NCBI GenBank assembly: GCA_947477885.1
Contig: CANJUD010000002.1
Location: forward strand, 248,001-312,000
Reading direction: 5' to 3'
From: Bacteroidota bacterium
GTDB lineage: Bacteria; Bacteroidota; Bacteroidia; UKL13-3
DNA length: 64,000 nt
Shown here: positions 3,649-47,518 of the stretch, piece by piece
How positions within the stretch are numbered: the first letter of the stretch is position 1
How the letters are laid out: every line of letters begins with the position of its first letter
Position numbers and translations under genes: made by a program
The notes under the pieces: generated by a model
What the model was told of the DNA's origin: nothing
What the model saw: the letters and a program-made list of their open reading frames with translations, nothing else
The model's database searches: none

Positions 3649-5661
3649 ATGAATAAATCAATAACTACAGTCCGAAACTGTTTTTTAGCAGCAATTACAA
3701 TTGCATTTTCTACCATACATGTAAATGCTCAAGCACCCATCTTGCCATTAAATTCATATGGGGTTTGGGACAGGTCAAATGCATTTGATATTTCAAAAGA
3801 TACAGCTTATAATTATTTAAGAGGTATTAGTGCAGATGTTTTTTGGAAAGATGTTCAAGCTATTGACTCAGGACATTATGATTGGTCTGCAATTCAAGCT
3901 ATTTTACAAACAGCATATACTAACGATCAAATGGTAAACATAAGTGTTGGTGTTGGTCCTGATGCACCAGCATGGATTTATGTAAATGGAGTGCCTAGCG
4001 TAATTACGGATGATACACAACATCCTGGTTGGACAAAGTATCCCTACTACTTGGATTCAGATTACAAACACTATTATTTTAAACTAATAGATAGTTTTGG
4101 TGTTTTTTTAAGAACGCTACCTGCAAACTTATTTAGTCGCATTGCTTATGTTCAAGTAAAGACTGGTTGCACTGGTGACGAAGTTGCATACAAAGGAAAT
4201 CCGCTTGATACTTTATACAATATTTCAGATTCAACTTGGAGTGCATTTCGATTAAATACATTTGAAAAATTTAGATTAAACTTTAACACAGGTAATAACA
4301 GCAATAAAATCGGTCTTCTTTTCAATAGCATCGACTCAGCCGACCACGCCAACGAATGGCAATGGGTTTTAACCAATATTACTTATGGCTTTGGAATTAA
4401 AGGTGGTGCCTATGGTCGAGGCCATCATCTTTCAGATGAACTTACATACAAAAACACTCGGACACAATATCTCATCAACCCCCAGAACTTACAACTATTT
4501 TCTGCAGCTGAACAAGACCAAACTTGGAAGGGTCCAGTATACCAAATAAATGTTCCCTTGGGTTTTTATTGGGGTGCTATCAGTGGACTTAATACGGGGC
4601 TTTCTGTTTGGCTTGTAACGCAAAGTGCATTAAATGAAGCACAGGTAAAACCCAAATTACATAGCATTTTCAGAATGTTTAACAAGTATGCTGGGCAAAT
4701 TTATCCTACTACTGCAAATGCAGCCTACACTATTTTTCACGAAGGTTTAAATTCAGCTAATACCAATAAATTTTCTGTAGCTAAGTTCGGTAATGCAAGT
4801 CAATCAAATCAAGCTCGTTATACAGCCATATGTGCTGCCTATGCTGCAAGAGGTGCTAAAATGGATGATGTGTATGCGGCCACAAAAGGACAGGTTTATC
4901 AGCGTGCCAGTCAAACAGGATACAATGATGCTGGCTGGAATATTGAGGAAGGTAATTACGAAAGATGGATAACGCAGATAAACCCTGATTCTACTTCCAT
5001 AGGTCTTTTCAGAGTTCGTGGAGTTATTGACTCAACTTCATCTATGTATGACCGTTTTGCACGGTCATTTGAGAACAGCAGTGGCAAAAACGCTATGTAT
5101 TTCAAATTCCATCAAAGCCTATTTTCCCTTGCACTTCCTGATAGTTTATCATTCAAAATTACTTGGCTTGACAAGAACCAAAACTCAACTTGGGCTTTTA
5201 AATATTATAATACGAATGGCTTGCAAACGGCATTAACTGTTACAGGTATTGGCGATAATCAGTGGAAAACAGTGGGTGTGGTTTTACACAATGCTGTTAT
5301 AAATCACAATGGTATATTAGGCTCGGATTTTATGCTAGTAAATACGGATGGCATTGAAGATATTTTCCATGGCATTGAAGTGGATATAACCCGCGGAGGA
5401 ATTTTATCAGTTATCAACGATGGGTTGGGTTTATCGAATACAACCTTATTTCCAAATCCGACAAATTCAATTGTATCATGGGACAAAGAAATTAATGCTG
5501 ATGAGATTATTGTTTATAATACTTATGGGCAAAAAGTACTTAGAATAGCTAACATTACAAACAATTCACTAAATTTAATTGACTTGAATAATGGACTCTA
5601 TTTTGTTGAATTATTAAAAGGTAAAAAGAGAATTTCAGTAACCAAAGTGATTAAGGAATAA
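3649..5661 (+). CDS. Secreted TIM-barrel glycoside hydrolase-like protein with T9SS type A sorting domain
   Basis: Signal peptide; beta-galactosidase-like N-terminal region; C-terminus 'LFPNPTNSIVSW...GLYFVELLKGKKRISVTKVIKE'. Confidence 0.65.
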   Translation: MNKSITTVRNCFLAAITIAFSTIHVNAQAPILPLNSYGVWDRSNAFDISKDTAYNYLRGISADVFWKDVQAIDSGHYDWSAIQAILQTAYTNDQMVNISVGVGPDAPAWIYVNGVPSVITDDTQHPGWTKYPYYLDSDYKHYYFKLIDSFGVFLRTLPANLFSRIAYVQVKTGCTGDEVAYKGNPLDTLYNISDSTWSAFRLNTFEKFRLNFNTGNNSNKIGLLFNSIDSADHANEWQWVLTNITYGFGIKGGAYGRGHHLSDELTYKNTRTQYLINPQNLQLFSAAEQDQTWKGPVYQINVPLGFYWGAISGLNTGLSVWLVTQSALNEAQVKPKLHSIFRMFNKYAGQIYPTTANAAYTIFHEGLNSANTNKFSVAKFGNASQSNQARYTAICAAYAARGAKMDDVYAATKGQVYQRASQTGYNDAGWNIEEGNYERWITQINPDSTSIGLFRVRGVIDSTSSMYDRFARSFENSSGKNAMYFKFHQSLFSLALPDSLSFKITWLDKNQNSTWAFKYYNTNGLQTALTVTGIGDNQWKTVGVVLHNAVINHNGILGSDFMLVNTDGIEDIFHGIEVDITRGGILSVINDGLGLSNTTLFPNPTNSIVSWDKEINADEIIVYNTYGQKVLRIANITNNSLNLIDLNNGLYFVELLKGKKRISVTKVIKE

Positions 5662-17789: not shown

Positions 17790-18929
17790 CTATCTTAAAA
17801 CATCGCGTGAAATAACAATTTTTTGTACTTCGCTAGTCCCTTCATATATCTGGGTAATTTTAGCGTCTCGCATCAATCGTTCCACATGGTATTCTTTCAC
17901 ATAACCATAGCCTCCATGCACTTGCACGGCTTCAATAGTTACATCCATAGCAGTTTTAGATGCATAGAGTTTGGCCATGCTACTAGCAATTGCGTATTCT
18001 AGATGTTGGTCTTTTAACCAAGCTGCTTTAAGACATAACAATCGTGATGCTTCAATTTCGGTTGCCATATCGGCCAATTTAAATTGGATGGCTTGGTGAT
18101 TCATAATTTCGGTACCAAATGCTTTACGTTGTTTTGAATATGCTACAGCTAATTCAAAAGCTCCTGAAGCAATTCCAAGTGCTTGAGCTGCAATTCCGAT
18201 ACGGCCACCACCCAAAGTTTTCATAGCGAATTTGAATCCGAAACCGTCCTCCCCTATCCTATTTTCTTTAGGAACAATCACATCTTGAAACATAACTGAG
18301 TGGGTATCGCTTGCACGTATTCCCATCTTTTGTTCTTTGGGTCCGAGTGTTATGCCAGGGCTATTGCGTTCTACTATAAAAGCATTGATTCCTTTATGTC
18401 CTTTCTCGGGATAAGTTTGTGCAATTACCAAATAAGTACTTGCAGTATTGCCGCAGGTAATCCAATTTTTTGTTCCATTCAATATATAGTGGTCACCTTT
18501 ATCAGCAGCGGTGGTTCTTTGCGAAGTAGCATCACTACCTGCTTCAGGCTCACTTAGCAAAAATGCTCCGTGGCACTGACCACTTGCTAAAGGAACCAAG
18601 TATTTCATTTTCTGTTCCTCATTACCAAAGGTCTCAAGTCCCCAGCAAACCAATGAATTGTTTACAGAAACTACAACAGATGTGGATGCATCTATCTTGC
18701 TAATTTCTTCCATGGCCAATACATAGCTCACAGTATCCATACCCGCTCCACCATATTTGGGGTTCACCATCATTCCCATAAACCCCATTTCGCCCAATTT
18801 CTTAATTTGTTCAGTTGGAAACTTTTGGGTTTCGTCGCGTTCTATTACTCCTGGTAGCAATTCTTGTTGAGCAAAATCGCGTGCCGCTTGGCGTATCATC
18901 AAATGTTCTTCGGATAACTGTAAATTCAT
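17790..18929 (-). CDS. Acyl-CoA dehydrogenase (short-chain/butyryl type)
   Basis: 'GAFLLSEPEAGSDA', 'RKAFGTEIMNHQAIQFKLADMATEIEASRLL', 'QVHGGYGYVKEYHVERLMRDAKITQIYEGTSEVQKIVISRDVL'. Confidence 0.95.
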   Translation of the reverse strand: MNLQLSEEHLMIRQAARDFAQQELLPGVIERDETQKFPTEQIKKLGEMGFMGMMVNPKYGGAGMDTVSYVLAMEEISKIDASTSVVVSVNNSLVCWGLETFGNEEQKMKYLVPLASGQCHGAFLLSEPEAGSDATSQRTTAADKGDHYILNGTKNWITCGNTASTYLVIAQTYPEKGHKGINAFIVERNSPGITLGPKEQKMGIRASDTHSVMFQDVIVPKENRIGEDGFGFKFAMKTLGGGRIGIAAQALGIASGAFELAVAYSKQRKAFGTEIMNHQAIQFKLADMATEIEASRLLCLKAAWLKDQHLEYAIASSMAKLYASKTAMDVTIEAVQVHGGYGYVKEYHVERLMRDAKITQIYEGTSEVQKIVISRDVLR

Positions 18930-19447: not shown

Positions 19448-20362
19448 TTAGATATCTTTTGAATGCTTTTTTTTGTATTTGGATTTTATTTTAAAAACAA
19501 ACAAGCGTATGATATCTTTAAATGACAAATGCTTGAACATAATCAAGCTCTCTTTGCTATAAAAACCATATATATTATATATTCTTCTAACTTGAACCAA
19601 TATGGCATCATTTATATAATTACTATAACGCTTGTTCAAATGCTTTCTATGATACTTGTATAGCAAAATATTATTTACCAAAAAATCAACTCTGTTTACT
19701 GGGTTATCTCTTAGTGAGGTAAATGCTCCATGAATATGCTTTCTGTATGCACACCTATTGTCATGCATATAATAGAATGAACCTTTGTCAAGCAACAATA
19801 ACAACAACACAGTATCGCCCGCATAAAACTTCAAGTCAGCTTCTTTAATTTTTATTACGTTTCGGTACACCAAAGAAGCGGTAGGATATATGCCTCCCCC
19901 TCTTAAAATTATTTGCTCGGGTTCAATATCTCTATCGGTATCCCAATCATGATATCGGGCAACGGCAATACCATTTTCTATGATATCAGCATTATGAAAA
20001 CACCCAACATACTGCGGTTTTTTTTCTAAAAAGTCAACTTGTTTTTGCAATTTATTTTCATCTGTCCAATAATCATCTCCTTCAAAATACGCTATATATT
20101 TTGATTGGGGAGAAGTGATCAAATCCATCCAGTTTTTTGCTGCTCCAACATTTTTTTCTTGCAGAATGAGCTTGATAAAATCAGGATATTTTTCTTTGTA
20201 TTCTAATAAGATTTCTCTGGTATCGTCTTTGGAGCAATCATCGGCAATAATTAATTCCCATTCAAAATTTACTTTTTGCATCAATACACCGTCAATTGCT
20301 TGACGAATATATTTCGCATGATTATAAGTAATCAAACATACTGAAAGCAGCGGGGAATTCAT
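19448..20362 (-). CDS. Glycosyltransferase family 2
   Basis: 'PLLSVCLITYNHAKYIRQAIDGVLMQKVNFEWELIIADDCSKDDTREIL', 'YFEGDDYWTDENKLQKQVDFL'. Confidence 0.93.
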   Translation of the reverse strand: MNSPLLSVCLITYNHAKYIRQAIDGVLMQKVNFEWELIIADDCSKDDTREILLEYKEKYPDFIKLILQEKNVGAAKNWMDLITSPQSKYIAYFEGDDYWTDENKLQKQVDFLEKKPQYVGCFHNADIIENGIAVARYHDWDTDRDIEPEQIILRGGGIYPTASLVYRNVIKIKEADLKFYAGDTVLLLLLLDKGSFYYMHDNRCAYRKHIHGAFTSLRDNPVNRVDFLVNNILLYKYHRKHLNKRYSNYINDAILVQVRRIYNIYGFYSKESLIMFKHLSFKDIIRLFVFKIKSKYKKKHSKDI

Positions 20363-29777: not shown

Positions 29778-29799
29778 CCCTTCGACTACGCTCAGGATG
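29778..29799. repeat. Dispersed CCCTTCGACTACGCTCAGGATGA repeat copy directly after the sppA stop codon
   Basis: cccttcgactacgctcaggatg begins at the base after the TAG stop. Confidence 0.75.
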
Positions 29800-30408
29800 A
29801 TAAAAGGATAAAGTATCAAGTACCTCGGAAGTTTTATTAAGCGGGAATACCTCCTGTAATTTTTAAGGAGCAAAAAAATATAAAAACGAATGTTTAACCT
29901 TTCTGCTTAATTACGAAATTGAGATAAAAATCTCTATTATACTTAATCATTAAGTGGCAGTATATACAAACCCTTTATAGGTAAGACTTATATATTTTAT
30001 TGATATTATAGACAATCACTTAGTTTGTAATTGTATAATAGTGGTAAATGTTTACCTCGATATTATAAACTGTAAAAGATTGGAATGGGCATTAATCAAT
30101 TATATGTTTGCTTGCCAAAGCAATGTAATATTATAAAAATATGGGTAATTAACCCCAATTATTATACCTAGGGAAATCCCTAGTATTTAAAATATATTTT
30201 TTGTTGTTGGTTTTTGTACTTTCATTTGAAGGTGATAAGATTGAAATAATAATGAAAACTATTATATTTGCTTTATTATAATTCATCATCTAAAAAATAT
30301 TAATTATAACACAATGAAAAACAACAAGTTAGCCCCCTCTCAAAATTTTTATTAAAAACCAAAACACCAACCTATCATAGGTTTGGGAGGTTATTATCTG
30401 TTACATTC

Positions 30409-31764
30409 TTGGTACTTTTTGCATTGATGCCTTTTAGTAAATCTAAAGCACAATGCACTGTTACTACTTTGCGTGAAACCTGTAATACATCTCTTGTGTT
30501 AACTTCTCAGAACGGTGCTCCATGGTTGTATACTTGGTACGAATGTAACTCGAGCGGTGGCAGTATGACTGTTCTAAATGGTGGCGTTCCAACAAACAGT
30601 ATAACCGTTTTTCCTAACCAGACAACAAACAACGAAACTAAATATTTTAGGGAGATTGGGCTGCTCCTAGTTGCACCTTTCACTATCTGTACTTCAGCAG
30701 TAATCACCGTGAAGTTTGATTATAGTTTGGTAATTGCAAATGTGGCCGGAGTCCTTACTGCACAAACGTATTCAGGTACAATTACATACAACAATTACCA
30801 ATGGTATAAGACTGGGAGTGGACCAATAGGTTCGGCTACGAACAGTACCTATACCCCAACTTCTTCTGGAAGCTATTATTTAATGGCAATCGCTTCATGC
30901 GGGGGTACCAGAACATCAAATAGCATAAACTTCTGTGCTTCCAATACGCAGTGCAACCCCACTGCCGTAACTTATGCCACATGTAGTACCGCCTATGCAC
31001 TAAGTTTTACACCAACCCCTTCCACAGGGTACAATGTATATTGGTACGAGTGCAATTCCAGTGGCGGCAGCGGCTCCATATTGAACAGCGGCACCCCTAC
31101 AAACAATTTGACTGTTTATCCCAATTCGTCAACTGGCAACCAGACCAATTACTACTATTATGTGTCCAGGGATAATTTCTGTACCTCTATCTGCACTTCT
31201 GCGGTTATTACTGTAAAGTGGGATTACGACCTAGAGATAGTTTCTGATTATGCATCACCTCCAACATATAGTGTGCAGCCTTACTCGGGTATAACATATT
31301 CAAGTTACCAATGGTATAAGGGAGGTAGTTCTATTTCAGGTGCAAACAGCCCTGCATATTCACCAACAACTTCTGGTTCTTACAATGTAATGGCCTCCCC
31401 GTCCTGCGGTGGTACTAGAACTTCGAATGCAATTATATATTATGCACCCAATACACAGTGCAATGCAACTCCGCAAACTTTAGCCACGTGTGCTTCTTCC
31501 TATACATTAAGTTTTACACCAGCAAGTGGGTATAGTGTTGACTGGTATTCGTGCAATTCAAGTGGGGGCAGTGGGAGTTTAATATCAAACAGCAATAGTT
31601 ATATCGTATACCCTGCCAGCACTACTGTCAATGAAACACAATATTACTATTATGTGTGCACTGATAATTATTCTAATGTGCCATGCACTTCAGCCGTGAT
31701 CACTTTAAAGTATGACTACGTTATTGGTATCTCTGGGGGGCACGGTTCCCAGCACCACTCTTAG
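30409..31764 (+). CDS. N-terminal part of a large secreted adhesin-like protein with three tandem ~167-aa repeats (frame-disrupted; real start probably ATG 30314)
   Basis: Repeats begin at 30454, 30952 and 31459 (WYxCNSSGGS...CTSAVITxKxDY...YQWYKxG...CGGTRTSN); frame breaks at the G6 run 31735-31740 and continues in the next ORF. Confidence 0.7.
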   Translation: MVLFALMPFSKSKAQCTVTTLRETCNTSLVLTSQNGAPWLYTWYECNSSGGSMTVLNGGVPTNSITVFPNQTTNNETKYFREIGLLLVAPFTICTSAVITVKFDYSLVIANVAGVLTAQTYSGTITYNNYQWYKTGSGPIGSATNSTYTPTSSGSYYLMAIASCGGTRTSNSINFCASNTQCNPTAVTYATCSTAYALSFTPTPSTGYNVYWYECNSSGGSGSILNSGTPTNNLTVYPNSSTGNQTNYYYYVSRDNFCTSICTSAVITVKWDYDLEIVSDYASPPTYSVQPYSGITYSSYQWYKGGSSISGANSPAYSPTTSGSYNVMASPSCGGTRTSNAIIYYAPNTQCNATPQTLATCASSYTLSFTPASGYSVDWYSCNSSGGSGSLISNSNSYIVYPASTTVNETQYYYYVCTDNYSNVPCTSAVITLKYDYVIGISGGHGSQHHS

Positions 31765-33739
31765 TTACTCGCCATATTCCAGTTTGAATACCTATAATAA
31801 TTTTCAATGGTACAAAGATGGTGTTTCATTGGGTGCAGCAGGAAATGCAAGCACCTACAATGCAACATTGCCTGGCACCTATTATTTCACAACCACATCA
31901 AGCAACTGTGGAAACAGGACATCTCCAAGTATAGTGGTTAATTGTGGGACAAATTCCTATGCCACTAGCAATAATTTTACAGGCCTTACTAATATTACCG
32001 GTGGAACAATTATATTTGATGGTCAGATTACAATTGCTGCTGGTGCGGTGGTCAATATTAGCGGGGCAACCATTATCATGCAGCAAAACTCATCCATAAC
32101 AATACAAAAACATAGTAGTACTGGAAATGGAGGCGAACTAAACCTTACAAGCTGCAATATCAGCAGCTGTGGCGACTGGCAGGGCATTTTTGTTCGCGGA
32201 ATGTCTACAGCCAAAGATGTATCGAATGGCTTGCTTTATATGCGGAGTTCATCAATACGCGATGCGAACATAGCAATCTATGGAGACAATTGTGCACGGA
32301 TTGATGTCCAGTCTACGAACTTTGATAACAATTATTCTCATCTCCAGCTTAACCATTACAACAATGTAACGAGCGGACATGGCCCTGATATTCTCTTTAG
32401 TGGCTGCAATTTCAATGCATTGATGCCAGCTGCCCCACTCAGTGGTTTACCAGGTTTTGTTTTGGCTGTCCTTAATAGCCCTAAGAGACCCATGGCTTAT
32501 CTGTATGATGTGAAGTCCGTTTCTTTTCTTACCTGTACTTTTGGATGCACCAATTATGCCACACCCCCTGACCAGATTGGCATAGATGTTTTTGATGCCA
32601 TGGGCACATCCAGTTCGATATCAGGAGTGAATGCATGGGATTGCGATTTTACAGGCGAATTTAACACTGCCATATATATGAACAACGGCAATTGGTCTGA
32701 AATAGGCTCATCGGGTCTGCCAACTACTGTAACTGGTAGTTTTATTGATGGGGTAGCCGTATTAAATGGTAGCGAAGTGATAATACAATATACAGATATT
32801 ACCCATGCTAGCGGCACTCTTGGGCATACAGGGATAAAAATAGACCAGACTGTTAATATTAATTTGCATGACAATAAATGTAAGTATTTTACCAACGGGA
32901 TGGAATACTATTTTGACCAGTCTATATCGACCAACAACACTTATTCCGTTTTAAATGGAAACACTTTTGACTATAATACCTACGGGCTGGTTTACGCACC
33001 AGTGTGTTACCCCACAGGCAATGTTTCATGCAACAATGGCCACCGTGCCAAGCATGGAAGCAATACCAGTGCTTTTGATTTTACTTGCAATAGATTTGAG
33101 CACAACGACTGGGGTTTCGTGGGTACTGGGGATATGGATGATCAGGGCAGTTCAGGAGGGGACGATTGGGGTGGTTTTTTTGGGGACTGTACGGGCTGGG
33201 ATAATAGCACTCCTGCCATATGCACCACTTATGTCTCAACCAGTGCCAAAGCTGATATAGCGTGGTACGATGCTAATACTTTCAATGTCTATTTTTATCC
33301 TACTTTTGGCCTTTACTTCAATTCCGCTTGTTCACTTTTATTAGACAATCATTCTGTTGATTACCTAACCACTAATTGCCCTGGATCTAACTCCACATAT
33401 GAAAACTCTTGTTTTTCATCATTCAAAACAGACCCTAATGCAAGCAGTGGCACGAAATCATTTGATATAAAAAATGAACCATTACTGGACTCTATAGTTA
33501 AGATATTTCCCAACCCAAATAACGGTAGTTTCTTTATGCAAAACCATTCAAAATCTTTATATAATTATAAAGTATACAATGCCATTGGGCAGCTTGTATG
33601 CCAAGGTTATATAAATGCCGATAAAACAGAACCTATCCATATAATTACAAACCCCACAGGTTTCTACAATATTGTAGTTGAGCCTATGGGCGGGGAGGGC
33701 AAAAGACAGGTTTTTAAGATTATAAAAACAAATGACTAA
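31712..33739 (+). CDS. C-terminal part of the same secreted protein: rest of repeat 3, right-handed beta-helix-like region, T9SS sorting domain
   Basis: 'GTVPSTTLSYSPYSSLNTYNNFQWYKDG' completes repeat 3 in the +1 frame; C-terminus 'IFPNPNNGSFFMQ...GFYNIVVEPMGGEGKRQVFKIIK'. Confidence 0.75.
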   Translation: MTTLLVSLGGTVPSTTLSYSPYSSLNTYNNFQWYKDGVSLGAAGNASTYNATLPGTYYFTTTSSNCGNRTSPSIVVNCGTNSYATSNNFTGLTNITGGTIIFDGQITIAAGAVVNISGATIIMQQNSSITIQKHSSTGNGGELNLTSCNISSCGDWQGIFVRGMSTAKDVSNGLLYMRSSSIRDANIAIYGDNCARIDVQSTNFDNNYSHLQLNHYNNVTSGHGPDILFSGCNFNALMPAAPLSGLPGFVLAVLNSPKRPMAYLYDVKSVSFLTCTFGCTNYATPPDQIGIDVFDAMGTSSSISGVNAWDCDFTGEFNTAIYMNNGNWSEIGSSGLPTTVTGSFIDGVAVLNGSEVIIQYTDITHASGTLGHTGIKIDQTVNINLHDNKCKYFTNGMEYYFDQSISTNNTYSVLNGNTFDYNTYGLVYAPVCYPTGNVSCNNGHRAKHGSNTSAFDFTCNRFEHNDWGFVGTGDMDDQGSSGGDDWGGFFGDCTGWDNSTPAICTTYVSTSAKADIAWYDANTFNVYFYPTFGLYFNSACSLLLDNHSVDYLTTNCPGSNSTYENSCFSSFKTDPNASSGTKSFDIKNEPLLDSIVKIFPNPNNGSFFMQNHSKSLYNYKVYNAIGQLVCQGYINADKTEPIHIITNPTGFYNIVVEPMGGEGKRQVFKIIKTND

Positions 33740-36700
33740 AATTCAATTACTGTATAGGTTATTGTTATGCGTATTCAGTATGGCTGTTTTTGCTAGTAGC
33801 ACTCATGCCCAAATGGGCAATAACTGGTGCTTTGGGAGAAAGGCAGGGATTACATTCAACACCTTGCCTGCTAGTACTTTTACCTCCGCCATTCATGACA
33901 GAGATAGTGACACCTCGGGTGCCCGTTTCTCCCAGTGCTATTCAAACTGTAAAGGAGAGCTGTTATTGTACACGGGTGATGGTTATCGCATTTGGAACAA
34001 GAAGCACAAACTTCTTCCCTCTTGTAGTATAGTTGCACCAACAACTTACAATTCACTGTTTTTACCAGACCCAAATGATGATTCAACCATATTTCTGTTT
34101 GTGAATGGCGTAGATACCAGTGTTAGTCACTTTGAGTATTATACCATAGACTTGAGGCTGGACAGTGGAAGAGGGGATATAAGCAGCGGACCTACACTGA
34201 TTTCAGATTCTACCTCGAATGTTATTGCTTATATCAAACATGCCAACGATACTTCTTATTGGGTATTGGTAAAAAATAATTTTTTTACTGTTAATGCTTA
34301 TCTACTATCTACCGCAGGTCTATCAAAAAAGCCTATTGTAACCAAAATGATAGGGAAAGGATGGGGAAATGCCAATAGCCCTTCTGTAAATTTCAGGGTT
34401 TCCAATACTGGCAAATATATAATAGCCCCACAGCAAAGCAGCATCGGCAAGGTTATAAATTTTATATACGATTTTGACAATGCAACGGGAAAATTTTCAA
34501 ACGCAAGAACTTTGGTAGATAACCAGAAATTTTATTTTGAAAGTAGTGTTTATGTAGCTTTTAGTTTTTCTCCCAATGATAGCATTGTATACGCTATCAC
34601 CACCAATACTGGGGCAGACAGCACCTTGGTGTACCAAATACCTACCCATGATCCCAACCCCTACCTTAAAATAAAACTGGTAAATGGTGGCATTACCAAC
34701 GATGGCAACAAAGGGCCGCAATTGGGGCCTGATAATAGGATATACCTTCTAAGGGGAAGAGATAGCACAAGATCAGGCAGGTACTTGAGCTATATTCCCT
34801 ATCCAGATGTATGGGGCAGTGGAAGCGGCCTTATTATCAATGGTATAAAGGTTGATAGTGGGACAAATTGTAAAACTGGGGATATGCCTTGTTATGCCTT
34901 CCCCGTAAAACGTATTGCTAATAAATTTGATGTAACAGGTGCCAATGGCTGTGGCTACGATAGTGTGCGTTTCACCGCAGATGCAGATAGTGCGTTTAAA
35001 AGCTACAACTGGTATTTTGGAGATGGAGATAGTGCCACAGGAAAAAGCGTGGTTCACCAATACAAAAACCCTGGTAGTTATTATGTAAAGCTAGGCTGTG
35101 AACTAGGCAACTGCGGCTATATGCAATGGGTGGGAGATAGTGTTACTATCAAGTTTAAACCCACTGTTTCTTTAAACACAAACCAAACTATCTATTGTGG
35201 TGAGCAAACGATAGATGCCCAAGTAAATTATAGATACAGCGATACGGTGCAAGTGGCATGGGGAGATGGCACAGATACATTATTGTATGTTGCAGATACA
35301 AACCTGGCAGATAGTGTGCAGTTGCAACATATATATAATAAAACGGGCAACTATGCCATAAGCTGCAAAGCATGGAACCCCAACTGTTATGATAGTGTGG
35401 CAACAGTATATAATATAATAATAGATACCCTACCTAAATCAAGTTTCGCCGCAGATTATATAACAAGCTGCGGTACCAAAAGTATTATACTAACTGATAC
35501 TTCAAAATTTGATAGTGTGGTAGTAAATAGAACATGGCATATTTATAAAGTCAATGGTTTTGATACAACTATTACAACAGGTGCGGTTAATAATTTATCT
35601 TTCTTATTTAATGATACAGGAGCATATTCTGTTAAGTTAACAGTTCAAAGCAAGCAAGGGTGTATAGATTCGTTGGAGAAAATTAATTATATACAAATCA
35701 ATCCATTTCCTGCAAGCAAAATAAGTGGCAAAACAAGTTGGTGCGGTGTAGATTCAACTACGCTCAGCGTAATGGGAGGTAATAATTACAAATGGAGTAC
35801 GGGAGATACAACAGCTTTAGTATTGTTAAAACCTCTAACATCAAACTATTATAGTGTGGTTGTCACTAATATATATAATTGTTCGGCTAAAGATTCGGTT
35901 TATATAACCGTAGGTAAAATACTAAAACCAAATTTCAAGCCGGATTATATACAAAGCTGCGGCTATAGCACTATTACCCTTGCCGATAGCAGCGGGGGCA
36001 TGGATAGTATCATACAACAACGCAAATGGATGATTGAGTTCCCCAACAATGCCATCAAACAATATGATACTGTAAGTAGTAACAAATTAAAATTGATTGT
36101 ACAAGATACCGGTTATTATAATACCAAACTTATATATGTAACCAAACAAGGCTGCACGGATTCATTAACTAAAACCAATGTATTTCGTATATTGCCGCAG
36201 CCTGTTGTGTATATAGATAGCCCAAGCCACAACCCTTTGTGTTTTGGAGATAGTTTTGTTCTCACTGCCAAACAAAAAGATATAAACTACCCACCTCTGG
36301 TAAAATACAAATGGAACGCTGGGCCAGTTAATACACCAAGTATTATAGTAGATAGCAGCAACAGTTATTATGTGAGTGCTACCAACTCTTATGGCTGTGG
36401 GTCACAGAGCAATACGGTGAAGATAAGTTTCTTGCCGCAACTATTTACCAATATTAAAACTGCGAAGGATAGTTTATATACAATATCTACGCGTCCTATT
36501 CTGTCATATACTTGGTATAAAGATACTATTTTCTATAGTAATACTTCATCGCTTTTTCATCCGCCCACGGGCAGGTATTATGTGCATGTGGTGGATGGGA
36601 ATGGGTGTGTGGCGAATAGTGGGTCGTTGTTGCATATTGGTTTAAACAATATAACTTATACAGATAATGGAATGTATATTTATCCCAACCCAGCCAATGA

Positions 36701-36890
36701 TAAATTATATATTTCTACCGAAAATCTAAAAACAATTTATATATATAATTTGCTTGGTGAATTAGTGTATCAATCCAATTTTGTCCTTTCAAAACCTATT
36801 GATATTTCTGCACTTGGCAAAGGATTATATCTATTAAAAGCCGAAAACACTTTTGGTGAAAAACATGTTATAAAATTTGTGAAAGAATAA
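33732..36890 (+). CDS. Large secreted protein with PKD-type domains and T9SS type A sorting domain
   Basis: 'YNWYFGDGDSATGKSVVHQYKNPGSYYVKL' PKD motif; C-terminus 'YPNPANDKLYISTENLKTIYIYNLLGELVY...GLYLLKAENTFGEKHVIKFVKE'; ATG overlaps preceding stop by 8 nt. Confidence 0.85.
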   Translation: MTKIQLLYRLLLCVFSMAVFASSTHAQMGNNWCFGRKAGITFNTLPASTFTSAIHDRDSDTSGARFSQCYSNCKGELLLYTGDGYRIWNKKHKLLPSCSIVAPTTYNSLFLPDPNDDSTIFLFVNGVDTSVSHFEYYTIDLRLDSGRGDISSGPTLISDSTSNVIAYIKHANDTSYWVLVKNNFFTVNAYLLSTAGLSKKPIVTKMIGKGWGNANSPSVNFRVSNTGKYIIAPQQSSIGKVINFIYDFDNATGKFSNARTLVDNQKFYFESSVYVAFSFSPNDSIVYAITTNTGADSTLVYQIPTHDPNPYLKIKLVNGGITNDGNKGPQLGPDNRIYLLRGRDSTRSGRYLSYIPYPDVWGSGSGLIINGIKVDSGTNCKTGDMPCYAFPVKRIANKFDVTGANGCGYDSVRFTADADSAFKSYNWYFGDGDSATGKSVVHQYKNPGSYYVKLGCELGNCGYMQWVGDSVTIKFKPTVSLNTNQTIYCGEQTIDAQVNYRYSDTVQVAWGDGTDTLLYVADTNLADSVQLQHIYNKTGNYAISCKAWNPNCYDSVATVYNIIIDTLPKSSFAADYITSCGTKSIILTDTSKFDSVVVNRTWHIYKVNGFDTTITTGAVNNLSFLFNDTGAYSVKLTVQSKQGCIDSLEKINYIQINPFPASKISGKTSWCGVDSTTLSVMGGNNYKWSTGDTTALVLLKPLTSNYYSVVVTNIYNCSAKDSVYITVGKILKPNFKPDYIQSCGYSTITLADSSGGMDSIIQQRKWMIEFPNNAIKQYDTVSSNKLKLIVQDTGYYNTKLIYVTKQGCTDSLTKTNVFRILPQPVVYIDSPSHNPLCFGDSFVLTAKQKDINYPPLVKYKWNAGPVNTPSIIVDSSNSYYVSATNSYGCGSQSNTVKISFLPQLFTNIKTAKDSLYTISTRPILSYTWYKDTIFYSNTSSLFHPPTGRYYVHVVDGNGCVANSGSLLHIGLNNITYTDNGMYIYPNPANDKLYISTENLKTIYIYNLLGELVYQSNFVLSKPIDISALGKGLYLLKAENTFGEKHVIKFVKE

Positions 36891-37023
36891 GGGGTGGAAT
36901 TTATCCCACTACTATTTAAATACCAGCCATTTCCTTCCTGATCATGGATACTTGAAAAAAATCTTTTAAGTATTGCAACCTTTTTCATACCTTTGGCCTC
37001 TTAATTATAAAAAACAACCACAA

Positions 37024-45028: not shown

Positions 45029-47518
45029 TTGCACTGCACCCTACACGAAATAGCAACCATCACTAATGCCTCTCTGCCCAATGGCGGCAGCGACTTATTT
45101 GTTAAAAGTATTATAACCGATAGCCGCACTAGTCCCATTCATCCCCATGCATTATTTATAGCATTAGTAGGCGAACGAAACAATGGGCACGATTATTTGC
45201 AGCAGGCTTATGCCAATGGATGTCGATTTTTTATGGTGAGTCAAGAAATTGACCACACACTTTTTCCCGAAGCAAGTATTATACTAACACATGATACTTT
45301 AATTGCCCTACAAACCTTAGCTGCTTTTCACCGCAGGCAAATGTATATGCCCGTGATAGGAATAACAGGGAGCAATGGCAAAACGGTGGTGAAAGAATGG
45401 CTATATCATTTGCTCAATAAAGACTTTAATATATATCGTTCGCCACGCAGTTATAATTCTCAAATTGGTGTTCCACTATCTGTATTGGGAATTGAAAAAG
45501 AGCACGGACTTGCTATAATAGAAGCCGGTATTTCTCAGCCAGGTGAAATGCAAAAACTGCAACATATTATAAAACCCGATATGGTGGTGTTCACACATTT
45601 GGGCACTGCTCACGATGCAGGTTTTGAAACACATTTGCAGAAAGCCAATGAAAAACTCATATTGGCGGAAGGTGCTGATTGCCTGGTAACACCTGTTGAC
45701 AATGTTCAATTAAAAGAAGCATTGGAAACCTTCAAACAAAAACAATTTATTAAAATAATTGGCTGGGGTTATAATACTCCTGCATCTGTTAATATAACGA
45801 AAGTAGAAAAAAGTATTATAGGAAGTTCCATCACGTTTATATATAAATCATCAGAATTAAAATTCGAAATTCCTTTTACGGATGATGCATCCATTGCAAA
45901 TGCTATTACTTGCCTTTGTTGTTTGCTTGCATTGGAAAGATTGGATGAAGAACATATACAAAGATTCACCACATTGCAACCGGTAGAGATGCGTTTGCAA
46001 ATGCTGCATGGCGTAAATAATTGTATTATAATAAACGATAGTTACAATGCCGATATAGAATCGCTGCAAGTAGCTTTGGATTACTTGGAAAGACAGAATC
46101 CCCGACTCTCAAAAACTCTTATATTAAGCGACCTCCAACAAAGTGGTTTGCCTGCAAATGATTTATATAATATTATAGCAAATCTTGTCAAAAGACATCA
46201 TATAGATAAACTCATCGGCATCGGACCTGATATGAATAAACATATAGATTTGTTTGTCCCGATAGCTATCGGGAGCGAAAGAGAATTCTATATAGATACT
46301 ACAAGTTTTATATCAAAACTAAACACCTCCAAATGGAGCGACCAAGCCATACTCATTAAAGGCTCACGCATATTTGGTTTCGAACAAATAAGCAAAGCAC
46401 TAGAGAAAAAAACACACCAAACCCGGTTAGAAATTAATCTGGAAAATGTAGCACATAACCTCTATACTATTATGGCCATGCAACCGCCCAATACCAAAGT
46501 AATGGCCATGGTAAAAGCTTTCGGCTATGGAAGTGGCGGACACGAACTTGCCAAAATGCTGCAACACCAAAAAGTAGATTATATGGCCGTGGCCTATGCC
46601 GATGAAGGTGTGGAGCTTCGCAAAGCGGGAATCAAAACACCTATTATGGTAATGAGTCCTGAGCCCAATAGTTATCGTTTATTGGTGGATTATAATTTGG
46701 AACCAGAAGTATATAGTCCCGAGGAATTGGAAACATATATAAATTTTTTAGCCGATAATCATTGTAATACTTGGCCACCGGTTCATTTGGAATTGGACAC
46801 TGGAATGCACCGCTTAGGTTTTCAAGCAAAAGAAATAGAAGTATTATATAAAAGACTCAATGAATTACCCAAACTCAAAATAGCATCTGTATTTACCCAC
46901 TTGGCTGCGGCAGATGAAAATGAATTTGATGAATTTACAAAAACTCAATTAGATATATTTGAGCAGATGGCTTCTCAAATTCAAAATACTATATCATATC
47001 CTATCATGCGTCACGCCAGTAATACTGCTGGAAGTATTCGTTTCAATCCAAACAGACCGTATGATATGGTTCGCCTCGGTATTGGATTATATGGTATCGA
47101 CCCGACAAACAATATACAAAGCAAACTGCAACCCGTTAGCCGTTTGGTATCTGTTATACTACAAACCAAACATATAAAACAAGGCGACACCATCGGCTAT
47201 GGCCGCCACACCACTGCCGATAAAGATATGCAAATAGGTATTATAGCCATAGGCTATGCCGATGGACTGAATAGACTCCTAAGCAACCGTAACGGGAAAC
47301 TATATATAAACAAACAACCCGTCGACATCGTAGGGAATGTGTGCATGGACATGTGCATGGTCGACCTCACCAATATAGAAGCCAAAGCCGGCGGTGAGAT
47401 TATTATATTTGAAACTGCCGAGCAATTAAATGCAATGGCTGTTGCTTGCCAAACAATTCCCTATGAAATACTCACACACATTTCGCAGCGGGTGAATCGG
47501 GTTTATGTGTTTGATTAA
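45029..47518 (+). CDS. murF-alr: Bifunctional UDP-N-acetylmuramoyl-tripeptide:D-alanyl-D-alanine ligase / alanine racemase
   Basis: MurF motif 'VIGITGSNGKTVVKEWLYHLL' and Alr motifs 'KVMAMVKAFGYGSGGHELA', 'ELDTGMHRLGF', 'IGYADGLNR', 'GNVCMDMCMVDLT'. Confidence 0.95.
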   Translation: MHCTLHEIATITNASLPNGGSDLFVKSIITDSRTSPIHPHALFIALVGERNNGHDYLQQAYANGCRFFMVSQEIDHTLFPEASIILTHDTLIALQTLAAFHRRQMYMPVIGITGSNGKTVVKEWLYHLLNKDFNIYRSPRSYNSQIGVPLSVLGIEKEHGLAIIEAGISQPGEMQKLQHIIKPDMVVFTHLGTAHDAGFETHLQKANEKLILAEGADCLVTPVDNVQLKEALETFKQKQFIKIIGWGYNTPASVNITKVEKSIIGSSITFIYKSSELKFEIPFTDDASIANAITCLCCLLALERLDEEHIQRFTTLQPVEMRLQMLHGVNNCIIINDSYNADIESLQVALDYLERQNPRLSKTLILSDLQQSGLPANDLYNIIANLVKRHHIDKLIGIGPDMNKHIDLFVPIAIGSEREFYIDTTSFISKLNTSKWSDQAILIKGSRIFGFEQISKALEKKTHQTRLEINLENVAHNLYTIMAMQPPNTKVMAMVKAFGYGSGGHELAKMLQHQKVDYMAVAYADEGVELRKAGIKTPIMVMSPEPNSYRLLVDYNLEPEVYSPEELETYINFLADNHCNTWPPVHLELDTGMHRLGFQAKEIEVLYKRLNELPKLKIASVFTHLAAADENEFDEFTKTQLDIFEQMASQIQNTISYPIMRHASNTAGSIRFNPNRPYDMVRLGIGLYGIDPTNNIQSKLQPVSRLVSVILQTKHIKQGDTIGYGRHTTADKDMQIGIIAIGYADGLNRLLSNRNGKLYINKQPVDIVGNVCMDMCMVDLTNIEAKAGGEIIIFETAEQLNAMAVACQTIPYEILTHISQRVNRVYVFD

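Follow-up and report, generated by a model that had tools for sequence, protein, structure and literature searches.

An adhesin-like gene in a Bacteroidota genome is interrupted twice, which raises the question of whether it is phase-variable, decaying, or mis-assembled. The gene lies in a window of 64,000 nucleotides (G000:C2:248001-312000) taken from G000, a genome of 3.12 Mb in 25 contigs. The first-pass annotation kept all three explanations and placed the two breaks at an A5 run and a G6 run. The comparison covers five other copies of the gene in G000 (L009 to L013) and further copies in the independently assembled sister species G001 and G002 and in the more distant G013, with one genome per species; G000, G001, and G002 are metagenome-assembled genomes (MAGs). 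A contig search gave no second strain, only the sister MAGs and partial matches to more distant sequences. The reading preferred here, with a probability of roughly 0.64, is that the gene belongs to a family of cassette genes whose phase varies by slipped-strand mispairing at a poly-C tract and that the copy in the window has degenerated in the OFF state. The evidence thus favors phase variation at the level of the family and decay for the window copy, and it speaks against mis-assembly as a general cause and against A5 as the switch site.

Both breaks of the window copy are real in the printed sequence. The ATG at 30314 is out of frame, as annotated, and opens a frame of 13 codons that gives MKNNKLAPSQNFY and then stops. 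The long frame contains no ATG, GTG, or TTG upstream of 30409, and its earliest candidate start, TTG 30409, falls inside the signal peptide, which rules out an upstream alternative start for the main frame. The first frame change does not occur at A5, since the in-frame paralogue L010 carries the identical ATGAAAAACAAC with A5; the 5' alignment shows the A5 of ATGAAAAACAAC also kept in the G001 and G002 copies L076, L077, and L079. Conserved in an in-frame copy, A5 was rejected as the switch. The second break was placed correctly, as the frame stops just past G6 and the next long frame takes over, and the repeats that it cuts are real, with about 500 nt each. G6 was rejected as a conserved switch because L009, L010, L011, and L012 show no G run at the homologous place, and it looks like an incidental run. 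The features of the locus are collected in Table 1.

Table 1. Features of the cassette locus, in positions of the window
Feature	Positions	Strand	Basis or remark
Two-gene cassette (7.2 kb)	29778..36952	+	Flank similarity to L167/L168 stops at ~29776 and resumes at ~36953
Palindrome ACCTAGGGAAATCCCTAG, head of the shared 5' module	30166..30183		Up to 2 mismatches allowed
TATATTTG, putative promoter-element match	30263..30270	+	TAYATTTG conserved in the aligned copies covering the position
First main-frame segment, ~500-nt Ig-like repeats	30310..31764	+	484 aa open, without a proper start
Start codon and conserved leader ATGAAAAACAACAAGTTAGCCCCC	30314..30337	+	Pattern search of G000, G001, and G002
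A5 run named in the first-pass annotation	30317..30321	+	Conserved; the frame changes elsewhere
C5, apparently a short remnant of the family poly-C tract	30333..30337	+	Point at which the ATG frame leaves the main frame
Probable signal-peptide region SKFLL...KSKAQC, main frame	30340..30456	+	Sequence; conserved with paralogues
Second main-frame segment, beta-rich, C-terminal T9SS type A sorting domain	31712..33739	+	TIGR04183, AlphaFold, Foldseek
G6 run, where the frame changes again	31735..31740	+	Paralogues without a G run here
Second cassette gene (1052 aa), with PKD and T9SS sorting domains	33732..36890	+	Domain search
3' block conserved among cassettes	34899..36479	+	~81% DNA identity to L012 and L013

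The body of the window copy is built from three Ig-like repeats and a beta-rich part, which ends in a T9SS type A sorting domain at about 33503-33727. TIGR04183 scores 25.7 bits against this copy (cut-off, 23), and Pfam PF18962 reaches 24 bits, under its own cut-off of 27. The sorting domain is present in 9/9 family members examined. The secretion translocon is also encoded, with SprA (SprA_N) intact in all three genomes and contained in a single frame of 2421 aa in G000. The best reading of the cassette genes is that they encode T9SS-secreted surface proteins. The description as an adhesin has fold hints only, namely, the Ig-like repeats and the best Foldseek matches of the second segment to right-handed beta-helix proteins, obtained with an AlphaFold model of mean pLDDT 64. 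The bodies of the family members gave no match to a catalytic family or to a known family of adhesins.

The interrupted gene is the first of two in a cassette. In G001 and G002, sppA and the gene of the 1923-aa protein (87 to 92% identical to the window's) adjoin each other, with no cassette between them. It follows that the cassette either arrived at this site or disappeared from both relatives. The start of the second cassette gene overlaps the stop of the first by 8 nt, and each family member is followed by such a PKD/T9SS gene. Among the copies of the first gene, the 5' modules show 74 to 88% DNA identity and the bodies about 30% protein identity. Within G000, the palindrome ACCTAGGGAAATCCCTAG, with at most two mismatches, is found only upstream of three cassettes, those of the window, L010, and L013. 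The element TATATTTG fits TAnnTTTG, the -7 promoter element of Bacteroidota. A search of G000, G001, and G002 gives six sites with the leader pattern, each of them in a copy of the cassette-gene family. The mosaic of a conserved 5' module, a divergent middle, and a conserved 3' block of the second gene, together with the roughly nine copies of this partner gene in G000, would also fit a reservoir of silent copies, in which the out-of-frame genes would chiefly supply sequence for gene conversion into an expressed copy, by way of the 5' and 3' blocks that they have in common. Such a reservoir is very doubtful as the main explanation, given that several copies (L009 and L010) look expressible together and that the conserved ends may stem from selection or duplication history.

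Slippage at a poly-C tract is suggested by the aligned 5' ends, in which the variable part is a C run about 20 nt past the ATG. Where the window copy has C5, three other G000 copies show C8 (L013, at G000:C1:405130), C9 (L012, at G000:C5:5655), and C5TC4 (L010). Two G001 copies have C5AC3 and C8 (the latter in L077, at G001:C262:4324), and the G002 copy L079 has C11 (at G002:C107:15976). L010, with its tract broken by a T, is the sole in-frame leader copy, and in every other leader copy the tract is the point where the frame of the ATG and that of the body part, so that the tract sets the frame of the start codon relative to the body. Known contingency loci carry a long G/C homopolymer early in the coding sequence; one is present at the homologous place in L012, L013, L077, and L079, and in the window copy it is reduced to C5. 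The family copies L009, L011, L075, L078, and L080 are without a poly-C tract; the switch is therefore not family-wide.

Run lengths across the genomes place these tracts in context. A 464-kb sample of G000 contains 146 G/C runs of length 5, 21 of length 6, and only 3 of at least 8, and neither the A5 nor the G6 run is unusual by chance. As short runs are ordinary and long ones rare, the signal lies in C8 to C11 at the homologous place in relatives and not in A5 or G6. Across the three genomes, 9 of the 47 distinct C/G runs of at least 8 nt lie at the 5' end of an open reading frame of at least 120 aa, compared to 1.3 expected by position (Poisson, 8e-6), and all nine are C on the coding strand. 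Four belong to the cassette family and two to an unrelated second gene pair, L087/L181 in G000 and L113/L184 in G001, in which a gene of about 1075 aa lies downstream of one for a short secreted protein.

Several side observations may be added. In the second gene pair (L181, G000:C3:185000-193500; L184, G001:C213:5000-13000), the C8/C9 tract lies 5' of the signal peptide, the short secreted protein contains cysteine, and the G000 copy is also without an ATG. L111 and L112 (G001:C183 and C188) carry C9 directly 5' of the ATG in enzyme-like genes that show no evident signal peptide, where the runs could change the spacing of the translation start. The window contains an intergenic C15 (19153-19167), far longer than expected by chance, between a glycosyltransferase gene (19448-20362, minus strand) and an acyl-CoA dehydrogenase-like gene (17790-18929, minus strand), about 225 nt upstream of the start of the latter. 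Another intergenic 15-base G/C run, at L094:2091-2105 (G000:C8:33590-33604), sits amid short GTCCC/GGGAC repeats. Elsewhere in the window (45029-47518), a MurF-type ligase and an alanine racemase are fused in a single frame of 829 aa.

No uninterrupted tract was seen in the ON phase. None of the seven out-of-frame tract copies counted, six of the cassette family and L113 of the second family, is ON, an outcome with a 6% chance if phases were random. Apart from L010, whose tract is broken by a T, every copy with a tract is out of frame, as could also be expected if the full protein were made through programmed frameshifting of the ribosome or slippage of transcription at the C run. This is highly improbable: the offset is not constant, its direction in the window copy and L077 differing from that in L012, L013, L076, and L079, which argues against a programmed frameshift, and the window copy is broken again at another site.

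The breaks in the gene bodies show another pattern. Four of the six out-of-frame leader copies have a body break, compared to none of six other family copies (Fisher, 0.03, for a small sample with groups set after inspection). In the window copy, L012, L013, and L079, each break lies at a different place and is of a different kind, and L013 has a large internal deletion as well. The window copy is broken at both C5 and G6, and its body break is not shared by the other three. In two cassette-gene copies, the break lies at a TA dinucleotide repeat (L178:4276-4342 in G000:C9 and L012 near 4115-4160), a second kind of repeat at which the family loses its frame. In L011 (442-520), the body is intact and ATA stands where the related L009 has its ATG start.

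Such breaks, the deletion in L013, the lost start codon of L011, and the missing cassette at this site in the sister species would suit plain pseudogenes, that is, surplus copies decaying by random indels, with the C runs as mere indel sites and no reversible switch. Decay of this kind is rather unlikely to explain the family, since it would not be expected to leave C8 to C11 at the same site past the ATG in three species, and the second secreted-protein gene pair (L087 and L113) is arranged alike. In G001, L076 and L077 are out of frame at the tract and keep intact bodies, that of L077 comprising 905 aa behind a C8 tract and the conserved leader. Orthologues broken at other positions had been named beforehand as the mark of a plain pseudogene; this agrees with the body breaks, which differ among copies, and not with the 5' break, which recurs at the same tract. 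The window copy itself has probably decayed, because it retains only C5 and carries a frameshift in the body.

The breaks could also stem from errors of assembly or base calling in a gene that is intact in reality, as single-base differences in run length are the usual type of error. Composition-based frameshift scans of 464 kb say little on the background rate and were given no weight, as a first Viterbi version was blank even at known breaks and a second showed a sensitivity of about 10% in simulation. Little weight falls on this explanation. The neighboring sppA (588/588 aa) and the 1923-aa gene align over their full lengths to two sister species, SprA is in one frame, and genome completeness is 99.88%, which makes a general frameshift problem, and mis-assembly as a general cause, unlikely. 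Furthermore, the breaks differ in kind (C run, G6, TA repeat, and deletion), fall in family copies, and are found in the sister genomes as well. A base error may be present at G6 alone in the window copy.

For the slipped-strand reading, a multistep mechanism can be proposed. The shared 5' module comprises the promoter, the ATG leader, a poly-C tract at most about 25 nt from the ATG, and the signal peptide. Slipped-strand mispairing at C8 to C11 would shift the frame of the ATG and turn single copies on or off, and the tight overlap of the two genes would couple the downstream cassette gene to the switch. In the window copy, the tract may have shrunk to C5 while out of frame, with the loss of easy reversibility, after which a G6 frameshift could have been acquired under relaxed selection. 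Most simply, copies that can no longer leave the OFF state would decay, the window copy among them.

More tentatively, these genomes may represent a Bacteroidota lineage with no known host that possesses a multi-locus, poly-C phase-variable set of T9SS surface proteins. The set would have spread through a 5' switch module that is portable (palindrome, promoter, leader, C tract, and signal peptide) and recombines onto divergent bodies. A 2025 review counts the apparent restriction of many-locus phase-variable genomes to pathogens among the major open questions and offers database bias as one possible answer (PMC11868660). If the proposal is true, a slippage-controlled surface repertoire in Bacteroidota MAGs would be a test case for this question. 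In practice, the tracts of paralogues should be compared before a "frameshifted" MAG gene is called an error or a pseudogene.

Among known systems, the T9SS type A cargo proteins (TIGR04183) share with the cassette genes the C-terminal sorting domain and the presence of SprA, and the difference lies in bodies that matched neither a catalytic family nor a known adhesin family. Bacteroides surface loci that vary in phase by invertible promoters (cited in PMC11868660) are likewise a case of surface variation in Bacteroidota, based on site-specific inversion instead of tract slippage. For Ornithobacterium hominis, PMC13183296 mentions adhesin genes with a Fibrobacter succinogenes domain and a putative phase variation mechanism. 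These resemble the present family as adhesin-like paralogues, numerous in a member of the Bacteroidota, for which phase variation is proposed; they differ in protein domain and in being host-associated. This remark is all that a search of the open-access literature for homopolymer phase variation in Bacteroidota returned, which does not prove its absence. Further parallels are the simple-sequence contingency loci with intragenic poly-G or poly-C of Campylobacter jejuni, Neisseria meningitidis, and Helicobacter (PMC4965091, PMC5084427, PMC2823697). In contrast to those loci, the genes described here are T9SS cargo pairs in Bacteroidota MAGs without a known host, a shared 5' module is joined to divergent bodies, the switching is deduced from sequence, and the window tract is only C5. 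Common to both are a G/C homopolymer of at least 7 nt near the 5' end of a surface gene in an AT-rich genome (37% GC for G000), several loci per genome, and a reading frame set by the length of the tract.
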